This document shows, one piece after another, positions 16,739 through 22,593 of a stretch of DNA of 33,674 nt (position 1 is the stretch's first letter; each line of letters opens with the position of its first letter). The position numbers were made by a program, and so were the translations under genes. Source of the DNA: a virus. The DNA is taken from the IMG/VR virus record IMGVR_UViG_3300006802_000283, positions 1 through 33,674 of that record, one strand, 5' to 3'. The notes below the pieces were generated by a model, which had not been told where the DNA came from, made no database searches, and worked only from the letters and a program-made list of their open reading frames with translations.

Positions 16739-18772
16739 CTATTCTACTTCAGATAAGTACTGTTTTCGGCCCTCTTTTCGCAATTCCAGTGAAAACCGTT
16801 CATTTATCATAATTTTCACTATCCTTCGGATTTCTCTACTAGAACAGTTCAAAGGTTCCACGCCCCCAAAGCGGTCCTCGAATTCACGTTGGGTATACCT
16901 GCGACCGGCAATCTCCTCTTGTCTAATTAGCGCAAGAACCTGATCCTCCATCTGGGTTAATCGCTCTTCAGGATCGTCAGCGATTACCCGTGTCATATCT
17001 GCCCGATGTAGTACGCCGTCGTCCCCTTTTTCTAACCAGACAGGAGCGTCGGACATTCCGTAATTATTCTTTGTCACGGTCAGCCTTACATAGCGTCTGC
17101 ACTCATCTACCGACACCCCGTAAATAGGAGCCTCCAAAGGGCTCATCAGCCGTAAATTAGCGATCCACCTGACGCCCCCTGGTAAAGCACTGCTCCCCCG
17201 GCCATCGTGCTGATCGTCGAACAGGTTATTATTACCATGCTTACTACTATGATGGATAAGAAGTATGCCAACCCCGGTCACATTCACGATATAGCGCAAC
17301 GCTTCGACGAAAACAGTTGTATGTTCCACGCTATTTTCGTCGCCACCGCGAAAAGAGGCCACCGGATCTAAGATTATCAGCTTAAGGTCTTGTATTTGTT
17401 GGATAATCTCGATTAACTTCTTCACGTTTTTAGTTCTGACACACTTCCCATGGTCTAAAGTAGTTAAAAGGCAAGGCGCGTCCCTTTGGATAAAATTACC
17501 GATCAGCAGATTCTCGGCCAGCATTTGGGTATCAACCTCGGGTTCGTCTTCTACGCAGGTGGCATCTAAGCTGCGTACAACCGCTTTTAAGCGCCTATGC
17601 TGCTCCTCTCTCTCATCCTCGGCACTAATGATTAAAACCTTGCCTGGGGACGTAGGCTCCCACATACCGGCCACCGTTAGGCCAGTTGCGATCCCGATCC
17701 CGATCTGTTCTTGGAAGATAGACTTCCCGACGCCGGGAGCCCCCTGAATCATGGAGACAGCCGCCATCGGTATATTTTTGTGGAATACCCACTCTCTATC
17801 TGGTGGCGTATCCTCAAGCCAGTGTGAAATTCTGTAGGGAGCTAACAGATCTTCTTGGTCTTGTGGTTCCTCTTCTACTTCATCCCAATCTAGAGTATTT
17901 GTTTCGACGTAATGCCTGAGATCGGATAGCCCCCGGTCTTTACAGTGTTCGTGCTGGCATACGTAAGCCCCGAATTCGTATTGCGTGTCACCGAAGGTGT
18001 ACCCCGGTTGAAAATACATTGAACCGTTATCTGCATTATGGGAGTGCTCGTGCACCCAGGGGCAGGTGATTTCGATCGCGCCCAACTTGTGAGGGTGCTC
18101 GTATTTGAAAAGATTTAGCTCTATTAAGGCATCTACTATCGGATCGTGTTTGGGTAGTGTTAGCGGTTTCAGTTCGTGTTCGGTTGACACTAAGTCTGGA
18201 TGAGCGTCGATACCGAAGGCGTCAATTAATGCATCAAGATCCCACTCGTTGCTGGGGTTCCAGGTGATGAGCTTATGCCTATGGTTGTTATTTTGCTTTT
18301 TGGTGTTGACGCCTTCTGGGAGGCGTGCGTATCTGTTGCAGCCCTCCATTCCCGCATCCGAGTAGCCCTTATTGCCTAACTCTCTCATGAAGTATTCCAG
18401 GAGAGGCTTATCACGTGTGGGGTGTCTTAGTATGTAGCCCCACTGCTGATTATTCGGCGAGGTTTCTAATACATAAGAGGGTTTGACCGGGGGTCTGTTG
18501 ACCTTGTGACCTATATCATCGAGGACTATGACATAGCATGCATCGAATAGGGACTTTGTCCGGGCGACGTGGCCGTTTTCTTGTTTGAACGTTGAGATGG
18601 CGAAGAAGGTGTTTTTGGACAGAGCGTTTTTGAGTTGCGTCTGTCCCCCGTTGCGGTATTCACCCCCGCCCCAGTTGCGGTGATTATGCGGGTCGGCGGT
18701 GAAGCCTAGCACCCAGGCCCGTTCCCAGTCTTGCTTGAAGACTGACTTGAGGAATTGTTTGTTCGTTATCAT
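16739..18772 (-). CDS. primase-helicase (RepA-like hexameric helicase)
   Basis: The product is about 677 residues from the ATG at 18772, which overlaps the Cro-like stop (ATGA). Residues 1-190 resemble small archaeo-eukaryotic-type or RepB-like primase domains (VIVLDDIGHK near 82-90; CNRYARLPEGVNTKK near 145-159). A zinc-ribbon-like region (about 236-280: CPWVHEHSH ... CQHEHCKDRG) follows, as in primases. The second half is a RecA-like RepA-type ATPase with Walker A GAPGVGKS (344-351), Walker B LKLIILDP (463-470) and LLIHHSSKHG; the C-terminus looks like a winged helix. It would prime and unwind phage DNA, with the candidate origin directly downstream. Confidence 0.85.
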   Translation of the reverse strand: MITNKQFLKSVFKQDWERAWVLGFTADPHNHRNWGGGEYRNGGQTQLKNALSKNTFFAISTFKQENGHVARTKSLFDACYVIVLDDIGHKVNRPPVKPSYVLETSPNNQQWGYILRHPTRDKPLLEYFMRELGNKGYSDAGMEGCNRYARLPEGVNTKKQNNNHRHKLITWNPSNEWDLDALIDAFGIDAHPDLVSTEHELKPLTLPKHDPIVDALIELNLFKYEHPHKLGAIEITCPWVHEHSHNADNGSMYFQPGYTFGDTQYEFGAYVCQHEHCKDRGLSDLRHYVETNTLDWDEVEEEPQDQEDLLAPYRISHWLEDTPPDREWVFHKNIPMAAVSMIQGAPGVGKSIFQEQIGIGIATGLTVAGMWEPTSPGKVLIISAEDEREEQHRRLKAVVRSLDATCVEDEPEVDTQMLAENLLIGNFIQRDAPCLLTTLDHGKCVRTKNVKKLIEIIQQIQDLKLIILDPVASFRGGDENSVEHTTVFVEALRYIVNVTGVGILLIHHSSKHGNNNLFDDQHDGRGSSALPGGVRWIANLRLMSPLEAPIYGVSVDECRRYVRLTVTKNNYGMSDAPVWLEKGDDGVLHRADMTRVIADDPEERLTQMEDQVLALIRQEEIAGRRYTQREFEDRFGGVEPLNCSSREIRRIVKIMINERFSLELRKEGRKQYLSEVE

Positions 18773-19014
18773 ACGTATGCCGCCAGATCTTTTAAGAGTT
18801 TTACATCTATATTTGTGATTGATTGCATGGGAACCTCGTGGATGAGATCGCGGCGCTTGAGTAAGTTCATGACGTTGAGCAGTGAGCTGAACGGCACCGC
18901 ACCCGCAGCGCACCACTGCTGGACTGCTTGCGGGGAGACACCCACCTCTCGGGCGACCTCGGACAAGGAGTTGAAGTGTTGATCGAAAACGTCACGTAAC
19001 GTAGGGGTAGTCAT
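18769..19014 (-). CDS. Cro-like (YdaS-type) DNA-binding protein
   Basis: The 81-residue protein has a helix-turn-helix SLSEVAREVGVSPQAVQQWCAAGAVP (about 16-41), as in YdaS/Cro-like regulators. It starts divergently from the repressor and is the first gene of the leftward replication operon, with the helicase coupled by ATGA. It should bind the operators at 19036-19079 and hold down the repressor promoter. Confidence 0.85.
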   Translation of the reverse strand: MTTPTLRDVFDQHFNSLSEVAREVGVSPQAVQQWCAAGAVPFSSLLNVMNLLKRRDLIHEVPMQSITNIDVKLLKDLAAYV

Positions 19015-19035
19015 TGGTTTTCCTTATGGGTTATT

Positions 19036-19086
19036 AAAACATTCGTTACAATATAGCTTGTAATTCTCTTACAAGCAATCTATGCT
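19036..19086. promoter_or_regulatory. divergent promoters and operators, Cro-like versus repressor
   Basis: Rightward: TTGTAA (19058-19063), 17 bases, TATGCT (19081-19086). Leftward: TTGCTT (19078-19073), 17 bases, TATATT (19055-19050). The perfect palindrome GCTTGTAA-N5-TTACAAGC (19056-19076) covers both -35 regions, and a further TTACAA half-site is at 19046-19051. The 19-base element at 19036-19054 is shared with 11857-11875. Confidence 0.8.
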
Positions 19087-19140
19087 ATTTGGGAGTTATG
19101 TTTAACTACAGCTTTTAACAACCAATGAGGTGTCTATTTC

Positions 19141-19494
19141 ATGGCAAATAAAATCAAGTACTGGCGCAATCAACGGGATATGGATGTAGCAACCCTTTCC
19201 AAGAAGTCCAAGGTTCCTCGATCCACTATATATAAGTATGAGGCCGATGCGCGAATGCATCCGCCGGAGACTGTGTTGATTTGTCTCGCCGATGCGTTGG
19301 GCGTCACCAGTAAGCAGCTCATTAGCGGTTGCACCGGACGAGCTAAGGCCGAGGATACAACTACGTGTAGCGCAAAGCAGCGGTTAAATGCAATAGAGCA
19401 GACTCTGCTTGATGCGATGCTCGATGCGCCGACGGACACCCCGCAACCGATCCGCGAGATGTTCAAGAAGATGCACAAGGATCTACGCGGGTGA
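19141..19494 (+). CDS. XRE-family repressor, short
   Basis: The 117-residue protein has an XRE helix-turn-helix in its first 65 residues (DVATLSKKSKVPRSTIYKYEADARMHPPETVLICLADALGV). The remainder is short and helical, without the LexA/CI-type Ser-Lys peptidase domain, so induction by RecA cleavage is not expected. TGAGGTG lies upstream. It faces the Cro-like gene and is the likely lysogeny or early repressor. Confidence 0.85.
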   Translation: MANKIKYWRNQRDMDVATLSKKSKVPRSTIYKYEADARMHPPETVLICLADALGVTSKQLISGCTGRAKAEDTTTCSAKQRLNAIEQTLLDAMLDAPTDTPQPIREMFKKMHKDLRG

Positions 19495-19661: not shown

Positions 19662-19814
19662 ATGCATGATCCAAAACTAGCGAATTTTACGAACACCGAG
19701 CTTGTATCGTATATCCTCGGAAGCGACATACTAAGCGGTGATGACCTTAAAACCTACATCATTGCGCTACTGGTATCGCGACTTGAGACAGCCATTGGCT
19801 CTGGGGACGAGTAG
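19662..19814 (+). CDS. 50-residue hypothetical protein
   Basis: ATG at 19662 starts four bases after the previous stop. The product (MHDPKLANFTNTELVSYILG...) is acidic and helical. Its stop shares TAGTG with the first glycine-repeat gene, placing it in the same coupled series. Confidence 0.5.
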   Translation: MHDPKLANFTNTELVSYILGSDILSGDDLKTYIIALLVSRLETAIGSGDE

Positions 19815-20014
19815 TGCGGGTATTGAAAAACGCTCGCTCGGCATCCTCAATTGACTCGAGTTACGGTCGGGGCGAGGGCTGGGGCCGGGGTAGCGGCGCT
19901 GGCAATGCCCGGGGTAAGGGCTGGGGCGAGGGCTGGGGTAGTGGTCGCGGCAAGAGTGCTGGATGGGGCTGGGGGGACGGTTGGGGATATGGATCTCGCT
20001 GGAGTGGCGAATGA
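19814..20014 (+). CDS. glycine-repeat microprotein 1
   Basis: A GTG start at 19814 shares TAGTG with the upstream gene and gives a 66-residue protein with leader MRVLKNAR, akin to the MKILKHKY leader of the next members. From residue 17 on, Gly is at nearly every second position (GRGEGWGRGSGAGNARGKG...), with Trp, Arg, Ser and Asp between. The stop overlaps the next start (ATGA). Function unknown. Confidence 0.7.
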   Translation: MRVLKNARSASSIDSSYGRGEGWGRGSGAGNARGKGWGEGWGSGRGKSAGWGWGDGWGYGSRWSGE

Positions 20015-20151
20015 AGATTTTGAAACATAAATATTTTTATATTTACCCCAGCTCTGGCGATGGCTGGGGTAATGGCAGTGGCGCGGGTAGGGGAGTTTCT
20101 GGCGGCAATGGCATGGGTTGGGGATACGGATATGGCAAGGGCGGCGGATGA
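20011..20151 (+). CDS. glycine-repeat microprotein 2
   Basis: The 46-residue product starts MKILKHKYFYIYPSSGDGWG and continues with X-Gly dipeptides to the end. The first 24 bases of the gene are identical to those of microproteins 3 and 5. The start and stop both lie in ATGA overlaps with neighbours. There is no separate ribosome binding site, so reinitiation after the upstream stop is likely. Confidence 0.75.
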   Translation: MKILKHKYFYIYPSSGDGWGNGSGAGRGVSGGNGMGWGYGYGKGGG

Positions 20152-20399
20152 AGATTTTGAAACATAAATATCCCTATCCCGGATCGGGCGATGGCAGAGG
20201 TAACGGCAGGGGCAACGGCAGGGGTAATGGCTGTGGCTGGAGCAATGGCAGTGGCGCGGGTAGGGGAGTTTCTGGCGGCGATGGCAGGGGTTGGATCGAT
20301 GGCAAGGGCTATGGCCTGTATGGGGGTGGCGGTAGCGACCAGGGGCATGGTAGCAGCAGCATCAGTAGCGGAGTAGCGCTACTGAGGATGGAACCATGA
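20148..20399 (+). CDS. glycine-repeat microprotein 3
   Basis: The longest member, 83 residues, starts MKILKHKYPYPGSGDGRGNG. A stretch of about 45 bases in its middle is almost identical to microprotein 2, showing duplication. The C-terminus loses the repeat (SSISSGVALLRMEP), as if a frameshift or new sequence had been added. Coupled by ATGA on both sides. Confidence 0.75.
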   Translation: MKILKHKYPYPGSGDGRGNGRGNGRGNGCGWSNGSGAGRGVSGGDGRGWIDGKGYGLYGGGGSDQGHGSSSISSGVALLRMEP

Positions 20400-20509
20400 A
20401 AATTTTGAAACCTAAAAATCGTTATGACCTGAGCGTTGGCTATGGCAGGGGCTATGGCTGGGGCATTGGCACTGGCAGGGGCGCGGGGTACGAGTGGGGC
20501 AGCGGATGA
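20396..20509 (+). CDS. glycine-repeat microprotein 4
   Basis: The 37-residue product starts MKILKPKNRYDLSVGYGRGYG and ends YEWGSG. It has the same leader with two changes and the same ATGA coupling. Confidence 0.75.
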   Translation: MKILKPKNRYDLSVGYGRGYGWGIGTGRGAGYEWGSG

Positions 20510-20628
20510 AGATTTTGAAACATAAATATGCTCTCTCCTCCTGGAGAAATGGCGGCGGGAATATTTGGGGAGAGGGCAGAGGCGGGGGCGCGCACTTCTG
20601 TGGCTCTGGGCAAGGGCAATGGTACTAG
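20506..20628 (+). CDS. glycine-repeat microprotein 5
   Basis: The 40-residue product starts MKILKHKYALSSWRNGGGN, with G-rich, less regular repeats, one Cys and the end GQGQWY. It is the last of the first cluster; a gap of about 70 bases and a normal ribosome binding site (TGAGGT) precede the next gene. Confidence 0.7.
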   Translation: MKILKHKYALSSWRNGGGNIWGEGRGGGAHFCGSGQGQWY

Positions 20629-20701
20629 CAAAGGCGTGGGCGAGGGCACAAGACTTATGAGTCTCGTCCATTTTTACATTAACTACTGAGGTAACAACAC
20701 T

Positions 20702-21082
20702 ATGAAGAAGACAATTATTGGTAATCAGACTGATCAACAAGTAATTGATGTTGACAACTGGGGTGAGCAAGGCGACTTACGTATCGTTCGCTGTAAGCGA
20801 ATCCCAGATAAGTTTCAAACGCAAACCGACGATGTGATTGTCGCTCATTCTGAAACCGGGCATCACCACGTCGTTGATCTAAACGAAGTGGATGTGTTTC
20901 ATCACCCGGAAAATGAGCGTAAAAAATACATTCGTTTGAAAGGAGAATCAGCTAACGTGATTCACATGCGAGATCATCGAACGCACAAAACACAACGTGT
21001 TGTGGGGAAACCTGGCGATGTCTTTAAGTTGATTCGCCAAGTTGATTTTTGGAAAGAACAACAGCGTATCCGGGCCGACTAA
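20702..21082 (+). CDS. conserved phage protein with HSETGHHHVV motif
   Basis: The 126-residue protein has a central AHSETGHHHVVDLNEVDVFHHP (about 48-69) and flanking strand-rich segments, perhaps a small barrel. I recall similar His-triad segments upstream of DUF6745-type genes, but function is unknown. Metal binding by the His cluster is possible. The stop shares TAATG with the next start. Confidence 0.7.
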   Translation: MKKTIIGNQTDQQVIDVDNWGEQGDLRIVRCKRIPDKFQTQTDDVIVAHSETGHHHVVDLNEVDVFHHPENERKKYIRLKGESANVIHMRDHRTHKTQRVVGKPGDVFKLIRQVDFWKEQQRIRAD

Positions 21083-21819
21083 TGGGATTGGCTTATCACA
21101 TCTTGGGATCGCTAAGAATGCGGCAAGACGACGATACAGCATTTGTGATGCGGGAAGTTAATCGTCTTGCCGATGAGTTTGGACTACGGGCTATCATCTG
21201 TGACGGCCCTACGGAGGTAATCGAGAAAACGGGATTAGCTGTACAAGCGTATGACTATGCTGCTGAATGCTTAGAGTGTTTGCAATCTTTGAGACAGCAT
21301 TGTCACCGGATATTTATCTATGATGATGTGATTCTCGTGCAGATGCTCCCCACAAGGGTACTAGTTGCACAGGGGGTAGGCTTGCACTCAACAAGCGAAC
21401 CTGCGCTTGAGTATGCAGATGGCACTAAAGAATATTATGTGCGGGGGGAACAGGCACCCGCAGAGTTCTATGTGCCGGGGTACTTGAATGCCGAAATGAT
21501 TCTCGAACATATGCGCGACAACATCGATACGCAATCGATCGCGATCGAGATCTACGGCTGGCCCAACATACTTTCAGAGTTAGAAGCAGAAGTGATCGAT
21601 GAAGACGAACCGCACATCGGTACTTTGTACGAAGCATCGTTGGGCGATGAACCTTTTCGACTTTTGAAATGCGTATGCGGTACGGGCGCGGAAGTAGTAC
21701 TACCCGTGCTTATGTCACACACCACGGCCTTGGAAGCAAACAGAGCCACGTTTGCGGATGAAGATGATGAGGCTGATGGCAGCATTGAATTTTTAACACA
21801 TTTGGAGGCAAGAACATGA
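21082..21819 (+). CDS. DUF6745-like protein
   Basis: The product is about 245 residues from the ATG at 21082 (TAATG coupling). The part from about residue 100 on (GVGLHSTSEPALEYADGTKEYYVRGEQAPAEF ... AEMILEHMRDNIDTQSIAIEIYGWP ... GTLYEASLGDEPFRLLKCV) follows the DUF6745 pattern. No catalytic function is established for the family. The stop overlaps the DUF6948-like gene by 4 bp. Confidence 0.65.
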   Translation: MGLAYHILGSLRMRQDDDTAFVMREVNRLADEFGLRAIICDGPTEVIEKTGLAVQAYDYAAECLECLQSLRQHCHRIFIYDDVILVQMLPTRVLVAQGVGLHSTSEPALEYADGTKEYYVRGEQAPAEFYVPGYLNAEMILEHMRDNIDTQSIAIEIYGWPNILSELEAEVIDEDEPHIGTLYEASLGDEPFRLLKCVCGTGAEVVLPVLMSHTTALEANRATFADEDDEADGSIEFLTHLEART

Positions 21820-22193
21820 ATAACCTAATCAATTTGATCAATGAAACTTTTATCGGTAAACGAGTAGTCATCCGGTCCAACTCCGCAGGAGTGTTCGTAG
21901 GCACGTTAGTAGCTAGAGACGGGCAGACAGTACTCTTAAAAAACTCTCGACGCATTTGGGGTTGGGAAGGGGCGGCATCGCTCTCGGAGCTAAGTCAACT
22001 CGGCGTTAAAGCGGATCGGAAATCGGCTTGTAAATTTCCAATCCCGATGGCCGAGCAGGTGGTTGAAGAAGTAATCGAGATTATTCCGGCAACTAAGGAA
22101 GCGCTGAATAGCCTCGACTCTACACCGATTTGGGGATTCGTAAACACCGATTACACGATCACTGAAGATGGTACTGCGGTTGCTAATAGTTAA
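21816..22193 (+). CDS. DUF6948-like protein
   Basis: The 125-residue protein begins with IGKRVVIRSNSAGVFVGTLVARDGQTVLLKNSRRIWGWEGAASLSELSQLGV, the characteristic DUF6948 pattern, then a helical C-terminal part with EVIEIIPATKEALNSL. It looks like a small beta-barrel. It is coupled by ATGA to the DUF6745-like gene. Function unknown. Confidence 0.75.
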   Translation: MNNLINLINETFIGKRVVIRSNSAGVFVGTLVARDGQTVLLKNSRRIWGWEGAASLSELSQLGVKADRKSACKFPIPMAEQVVEEVIEIIPATKEALNSLDSTPIWGFVNTDYTITEDGTAVANS

Positions 22194-22317
22194 GGCCAAA
22201 TACCCTCGGGGGGATCTCCCCCCGAGAGCAGACGGTGAAAGGCGTGTGTGGACAAGCCATATCGTTCGCCGGGGCAACGGCTGGGGCGGAATAGTATCAA
22301 CGGAGATTGACTTATGA
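22168..22317 (+). CDS. degenerate glycine-repeat microgene
   Basis: ATG at 22168 (or TTG at 22180) opens a 49-residue frame overlapping the end of the DUF6948-like gene. It contains VKAKYPRGD, close to the LKHKYPYPGSGD start of microprotein 3, and a short RRGNGWGG remnant. Its stop overlaps the next start in ATGA, exactly as in the intact clusters. A GC-rich hairpin (22205-22226) lies within it. Coding status is uncertain. Confidence 0.4.
   Translation: MVLRLLIVKAKYPRGDLPPRADGERRVWTSHIVRRGNGWGGIVSTEIDL
22205..22226 (+). promoter_or_regulatory. GC-rich hairpin CTCGGGGGG-N4-CCCCCCGAG
   Basis: A perfect 9-base stem with a 4-base loop, just after the DUF6948-like stop codon. No T-run follows, so it is not an ordinary terminator; it may limit reinitiation or protect the message. 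Confidence 0.6.
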
Positions 22318-22542: not shown

Positions 22543-22593
22543 CTGGCCGCAATCCTTTGAACCACCACACATCCGTTCGCGGCCAGTTTTTTT
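22543..22593 (+). terminator. intrinsic terminator
   Basis: CTGGCCGC and GCGGCCAG form an 8-base stem with a 28-base loop, followed by TTTTTTT. The next gene's AAGGAG site comes directly after. Confidence 0.8.

Follow-up and report, generated by a model that had tools for sequence, protein, structure and literature searches.

What kind of system is encoded by a row of tiny glycine-repeat genes and the three tightly coupled genes behind them? This arrangement occurs on the + strand of the virus record IMGVR_UViG_3300006802_000283 of IMG/VR, a stretch of 33,674 nucleotides (nt) that is called the window below. Its operon carries five microgenes, each encoding a short leader followed by glycine at every second residue (a (GX)n array), and the genes of the HET protein (with the motif HSETGHHH) and of proteins of the families DUF6745 and DUF6948. 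The initial annotation regarded all of them as one functional module. Comparison with related loci indicates two portable modules that lie together in one operon: module A (DUF6948 and (GX)n microgenes) and module B (HET and DUF6745). DUF6948 is predicted to have an Sm-like fold, and the glycine peptides may provide it with a tail in trans.

Pairing of DUF6948 with glycine microgenes

The DUF6948 protein of the window scores above the cut-off of PF22253 (84.9 bits; cut-off 27). As a query of IMG/VR it found no relative through its own patterns, but relatives from phage records succeeded as queries, and a profile made from five of them found 512 relatives, of which 80 were kept. Every scan in this study keeps at most 80 loci, and the DUF6948 sample is biased toward the closer relatives of the query. 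Arrays were detected by a fixed threshold (a 16-residue window with at least 7 of 8 glycines in phase). An array lies beside DUF6948 in all of the first eight relatives from phage records (L087-L094); that of L088 is degenerate and that of L087 is short. In the larger sample, 68 of 71 distinct DUF6948 loci have a (GX)n array on the same strand at a distance of no more than 400 nt; the remaining three comprise a fragment of the window itself, a locus with a shorter array and a locus cut near the contig end. In 43 of 67 cases the start codon of the microgene lies within DUF6948, 17 nt before its end (offset -17 nt), and in 8 the two genes overlap by ATGA. The leader of the microgenes at these loci is usually MSKLNKP-like.

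A search with the DHH phosphoesterase yielded 43 loci (572 kb), none of which holds any part of the operon, and these were used as control phage loci. Because no array was detected in any of the 43, the arrays in the window are not a product of chance. The reverse test used only a 26-base array pattern, which returned 80 arrays of one flavor (Y-D-S-Y). Among the 66 arrays with room upstream, 55 follow either DUF6948 (51) or a second, unnamed family (4). The pairing of DUF6948 with (GX)n microgenes is near-obligate in phages and apparently has not been described so far; a literature search by phrase returned no mention of DUF6745, DUF6948 or phage Hfq/Sm-like proteins. DUF6948 was found in none of 398 Pseudomonadota genomes, a result that suggests rarity at most, as no positive control responded. 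A search of IMG/VR with the leader MKILKHKY gave four matches, all in the same unrelated DNA, and a primase-helicase search for sister phages gave one poor match.

Tandem microgenes that share a leader are also present in L152 and L287. The five microgenes of the window (19814-20628), on the same strand of the same operon as DUF6948, represent an extreme case of this recurrent design. Their position is unusual, and so is their basic charge (+4 to +5); an acidic charge is the norm (61 of 67 arrays, median -6).

At three loci from gut phages and a Monoglobus plasmid (L087:5303-5821, L091:2156-2833, L264:3270-4028), the array downstream of DUF6948 is fused with another conserved domain, FAHGxTLRxA...WHHxLTGSC, and neither of the two proteins tested had a Pfam match there. 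In Iodobacter phage PhiPLPE, the glycine microgene beside gp84 (L090:1161-1406) is unannotated in the GenBank record.

A second array-linked family

The second family was found through L005:9417-9740. A GX microgene follows it in 63 of 66 distinct loci (L265-L344), with leaders such as MFKPIG and an overlap of mostly one base. Its consensus is RAVVVVDRGWIFAGDVTRENGRIxLxRAVWVFRW, and no usable Pfam or PHROG match was obtained. Alignment with DUF6948 by hhalign gave an E value of 0.068 over a stretch that resembles an Sm motif, and one member matches PF22253 at 0.024. These similarities are only suggestive, and the family is possibly a distant relative of DUF6948.

Variability of the arrays

The arrays evolve quickly as 6-nt units are gained, lost and shuffled. 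A group of 21 prophage loci, with DUF6948 genes that deviate by 0-4 of 390 nt from a reference, has many array architectures built of such units. Likewise, the arrays of seven Pectobacterium/Dickeya phages are all different (in proteins of 53-89 amino acids, aa), and their leader is conserved. Within arrays, the wobble bases of the Gly and X codons are near-constant (0.29 and 0.28 bits), and variation is found in positions 1 and 2 of the X codon (1.16 and 1.03 bits). S, Y, D and N account for 89% of the X residues. Neutral drift with selection for glycine alone would have freed the Gly wobble position, which argues for selection of X diversity with fixed codons or for shuffling of whole units. 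The arrays of the window are more worn, with 1.5-1.6 bits at wobble positions.

DUF6948 with a hypervariable glycine microgene, of the type seen in this prophage group, is found in Neisseria gonorrhoeae records (L154-L174, L263), where the table used carries no annotation for it. One chromosome-sized N. gonorrhoeae record has the pair at three places. PLSDB lists the 2.17-Mb N. gonorrhoeae record of L263 (NZ_CP119142.1) as a plasmid, yet its size is that of a chromosome.

Predicted fold of DUF6948

Sm proteins are commonly ring-shaped RNA binders, often with disordered glycine-rich tails. The AlphaFold2 model of DUF6948 (predicted local distance difference test, pLDDT, 79; predicted template modeling score, pTM, 0.71) has the beta-barrel with N-terminal helix of the Sm/LSm fold. 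In a Foldseek comparison with the PDB, nearly all of the top 50 matches are Sm/LSm proteins (probability 1.00, E values from 4.8e-4, template modeling score (TM-score) normalized to the target up to 0.76). Sequence searches also give faint signals of two further Sm families, LSM14 for the window protein and the Ataxin-2 SM domain (SM-ATX) for some relatives. A search of the PDB with the DUF6948 sequence profile returned LSm6 only, at E 1.7-1.9. All 57 aligned DUF6948 proteins match PF22253 and 46 of the 57 match phrog_18306. The prediction for DUF6948, made from its model, is of an Sm-like fold and does not extend to Hfq, which sequence comparison failed to match.

Pairing of HET with DUF6745

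The HET scan of IMG/VR kept 80 loci, and DUF6745 was sought with a profile grown from the window protein, which itself exceeds the cut-off of PF20530 (37.2 bits; cut-off 27). A DUF6745 relative adjoins HET in 78 of the 80 viral loci, and the two genes are adjacent and co-directional in the window as well. Viral and genome loci together give 92 distinct pairs, with DUF6745 first in 82 and HET first, as in the window, in 10; the most frequent spacing is an ATGA overlap. Apart from an antisense artefact, no other neighbor recurs beyond a few of these loci.

The HET alignment has an invariant stretch, H49-S-E-T-G-H-H-H56, together with H95 and a final aspartate, D126. Since the invariant histidine cluster suggests a metal site, HET is perhaps a metal-binding partner. 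It matches no family in Pfam, PHROG, NCBIfam or PADLOC, and BFVD holds one phage relative only. Direct comparison rejected a relationship of HET to DUF6745, and equally to DUF6948. Its AlphaFold2 model is mostly beta (pLDDT 82) and has no fold match in the PDB (best E 0.31). The DUF6745 profile found nothing significant in the PDB.

DUF6745 proteins end in RT nearly without exception. A four-residue repeat array (AATx, DQVx, SQLx, DSVx and others) is present in 59 of 92, with one hypervariable residue that is mostly R, G, D, Y, W or S. These arrays consist of 12-nt tandem units (e.g., L024:3961-5088, L053:4418-5983); the first two bases of the hypervariable codon have 1.47 and 0.91 bits, and most other positions about 0.3-0.5. 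The DUF6745 array obeys the same principle of one variable position as the glycine arrays. Other frames of the 12-nt arrays can mimic GX repeats, and the GX arrays detected in HET loci, considered as possible microgenes, were rejected as mostly such frames, with L005 as an exception.

Two modules in one operon

The initial annotation stated that these families recur together elsewhere. This is correct for DUF6948 with (GX)n microgenes and for HET with DUF6745, and mostly incorrect for the whole set: DUF6948 is absent from all 20 whole virus records with HET/DUF6745, and neither HET nor DUF6745 was detected in any other DUF6948 locus or in any of the 80 array-anchored loci. Both kinds of module are found together only in the window, L005 and L284. 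In L005, a DUF6745-HET pair lies ~3 kb upstream of the second-family gene and its GX microgene, all within ~5.5 kb. In L284, a span of ~2 kb contains a gene of the second family, a GX microgene and a relative of DUF6745 (E 2.5e-16), and the HET-like gene in front is a weak match (E 0.0018 in a one-sequence test). Such co-occurrence may reflect a common accessory-gene region. The loci thus show two modules, occasionally joined in one operon as in the window, and no general four-part system.

Proposed mechanism and alternatives

The stretch may be one early phage operon composed of the two portable modules. DUF6948, as a small Sm-like beta-barrel, would most likely be a ring-forming RNA-binding protein, and the microgene products, a leader with a disordered glycine array, would serve it as a separate, translationally coupled tail in trans. 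Such a tail would shape RNA binding, release or clustering in the manner of the C-terminal tail of Acinetobacter Hfq, and rapid array turnover would give each phage a tail of its own. Module B would be the tightly coupled pair of HET and DUF6745. A tetrapeptide array is usual in DUF6745 and absent in the window; any function assigned to module B would be conjectural. The in-trans tail is the most economical mechanism, with the Hfq of A. baumannii as a precedent. The probability of this reading, a two-module operon with a phage Sm-like RNA-binding protein and a hypervariable in-trans glycine tail, is estimated at roughly 45%. A wider version is doubtful: that phages carry a widespread split RNA-binding system whose in-trans tail is diversified at one codon by an active process, with the DUF6745 arrays as a second use of the principle.

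Several observations weigh against the RNA-binding tail. The TM-score of the DUF6948 model normalized to the query is only ~0.45, and the sequence falls short of the Sm/LSm profiles: the window protein reaches 19.8 bits with LSM14 (cut-off 30), and weak Pfam matches to SM-ATX occur in 8 of 57 relatives (best E 0.0015). Direct kinship with Hfq (PF17209) was rejected, as hhalign against the Hfq alignment gave a probability of 0.1%. The opposite charges of typical arrays and those of the window imply that one tail role may not fit all. The intact microgenes of the window are situated upstream of HET, not beside DUF6948, where only the weak remnant is in direct downstream contact. The analysis shows the pairings, the overlaps of the coupled genes and the turnover of the arrays; the fold is predicted, and RNA binding by DUF6948, its contact with the peptide and the role of the latter as a tail are inferred.

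An action of module A on DNA, in which an Sm-like oligonucleotide binder with a glycine tail would aid recombination or single-strand handling as the tail of single-stranded DNA-binding protein (SSB) does, is unlikely and is nonetheless a serious rival. The loose neighbors of DUF6948, whose names were read from sequences and annotated phage records, include SSB (10 of 62 loci) and RecT/ERF-like, YqaJ-like and Gp157-like proteins, with exonuclease genes among them; however, no such neighbor exceeds 10 of 62, and the Sm proteins that match the model best in structure bind RNA. The quick turnover of arrays among near-identical phages, with variation concentrated at amino-acid-changing positions, would also suit decoys or baits in phage-host or phage-phage conflict (toxin-antitoxin or counter-defence), with DUF6948 as their control protein. 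This is rather unlikely, as the three window proteins have no PADLOC match, the recurrent neighbors include no defence genes, and the small polar set of X residues fits a biophysical role better than recognition.

Joint action of the glycine peptides, HET, DUF6745 and DUF6948 as one unit is improbable. It draws on the strict coupling in the window and on L284 and L005, but only 2 of 66 second-family loci have HET/DUF6745, and together with the absences described above this largely refutes it as a general rule. It is very unlikely that the arrays are selfish simple repeats maintained by slippage with no protein function: growth and shrinkage in 6-nt steps would be expected of these, yet the near-obligate tie to two gene families, the conserved leaders, the start-codon overlap and the open frames speak against it, as do constant wobble positions beside varying X codons. 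A natural product matured from precursor peptides, which HET and DUF6745 would modify, could account for the repeated conserved leaders, the variable cores after these and the invariant histidines of the protein encoded downstream. Since the microgenes lack HET or DUF6745 in nearly all loci and the proteins tested match no known modifying-enzyme family, this explanation is hardly credible.

Layout of the operon in the window

The repeat genes, the three genes coupled by TAATG and ATGA, the remnant and the terminator one gene later are all located where the initial annotation had placed them (Table 1). Two reservations apply: a frame change shortens the fifth microgene, and the remnant is weak.

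Table 1. Features of the operon, in positions of the window
Feature	Position	Strand	Description
Glycine microgene 1	19814..20014	+	GTG start; leader MRVLKNAR; X residues include R, W, E, S, K, D; open frame
Glycine microgene 2	20011..20151	+	Leader MKILKHKY; ATGA overlap with microgene 1; leader DNA repeated
Glycine microgene 3	20148..20399	+	Leader MKILKHKYPYP; 83 aa, longest of the five; ATGA overlap
Glycine microgene 4	20396..20509	+	Leader MKILKPKN, diverged; ATGA overlap
Glycine microgene 5	20506..20628	+	Leader MKILKHKY; ATGA overlap; array cut by frame change
HET (HSETGHHH) protein	20702..21082	+	126 aa; mostly beta in model; invariant His cluster; invariant last residue Asp
DUF6745 protein	21082..21819	+	245 aa; ends EART; PF20530 E 2.5e-9; no N-terminal repeat array
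DUF6948 protein	21816..22193	+	125 aa; predicted Sm-like fold; PF22253 E 4.2e-24; ATGA overlap with DUF6745
Weak glycine-microgene remnant	22168..22317	+	Leader-like VKAKYP and one RGNGWGG stretch
RNA hairpin	22205..22226	+	9-bp GC-rich stem CTCGGGGGG-ATCT-CCCCCCGAG; no T-run; directly past DUF6948 stop
Terminator-like hairpin	22543..22593	+	8-bp stem (22543-22550/22579-22586) and T7; one gene after DUF6948

Microgene 1, whose peptide has a net charge of +5, shares one base with the stop of the preceding gene (TAGTG). The leader DNA GCGGATGAAGATTTTGAAACATAAATAT (peptide MKILKHKY) is near-unchanged at three microgene starts and diverged at a fourth, and microgenes 2 and 3 have an 88-nt segment in common (82% identical). 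Beyond microgene 5, an array-like reading continues in another frame to ~20689. The TAATG overlap joins HET to DUF6745 at 21082. The remnant, the least certain part of the layout, occupies the usual position of a glycine microgene downstream of DUF6948 and contains a 19-nt array piece (22268-22286) with 89% identity to the reference copy. The hairpin at 22205-22226 might be an autoregulatory RNA site; the fold z-score of the 136-nt stretch that includes it is weak (-1.9). The terminator-like hairpin has a minimum free energy of -15.9 kcal/mol and a fold z-score of -3.2.

Upstream of the operon lie two divergent genes, 18769-19014 (-), Cro-like by eye, and 19141-19494 (+), a helix-turn-helix regulator. 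The pair resembles a switch region, and the spacer at 19015-19140 is its likely control region.

Significance

These results give a context to two DUFs and to unclassified tiny genes that are often unannotated in phage records. With a predicted fold and a near-obligate partner, the role of DUF6948 becomes testable in cultured phages, such as Iodobacter phage PhiPLPE and Pectobacterium phage Pappous and its relatives. If the proposed mechanism is true, phages equip themselves with an Sm-like RNA-binding protein whose tail is exchangeable, and this would be a further element in their takeover of host RNA. Because near-identical phages differ strongly in their arrays, these amount to a natural experiment in the evolution of low-complexity glycine peptides as well.

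Comparison with known systems

The DUF6745 protein of the window belongs to the Pfam family DUF6745 (PF20530); most phage relatives have an N-terminal tetrapeptide array, which the window protein lacks. DUF6948 corresponds to the C-terminal part of the 242-position model of phrog_18306, and the function is listed as unknown both there and in PF22253. The beta-barrel and N-terminal helix predicted for DUF6948 are shared with archaeal and eukaryotic Sm/LSm proteins (1I5L, 1I8F, LSM14 6F9W; Sm-like 3BY7). DUF6948 differs from these by a long insertion that separates strands 3 and 4, and by a sequence similarity below family cut-offs.

The polyglycine-II adhesins of phage tail fibers (S16 gp38 type) are also glycine-rich, fast-changing phage proteins. 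Their partner is a fiber, whereas the glycine microgenes lie in the early/replication region, encode ~30-130 aa and have an Sm-like partner. A closer parallel to the proposed tail is the Hfq of A. baumannii, in which an Sm-type core is likewise functionally joined to a long disordered glycine-repeat tail; normal RNA interaction and autoregulation depend on the repeats (GGFGGQ), and the number of repeats matters (PMC11617691). In that host chaperone the tail is uniform and part of the same protein, whereas in the phage system an overlapping gene of its own would encode it, and the two-residue repeat is hypervariable.

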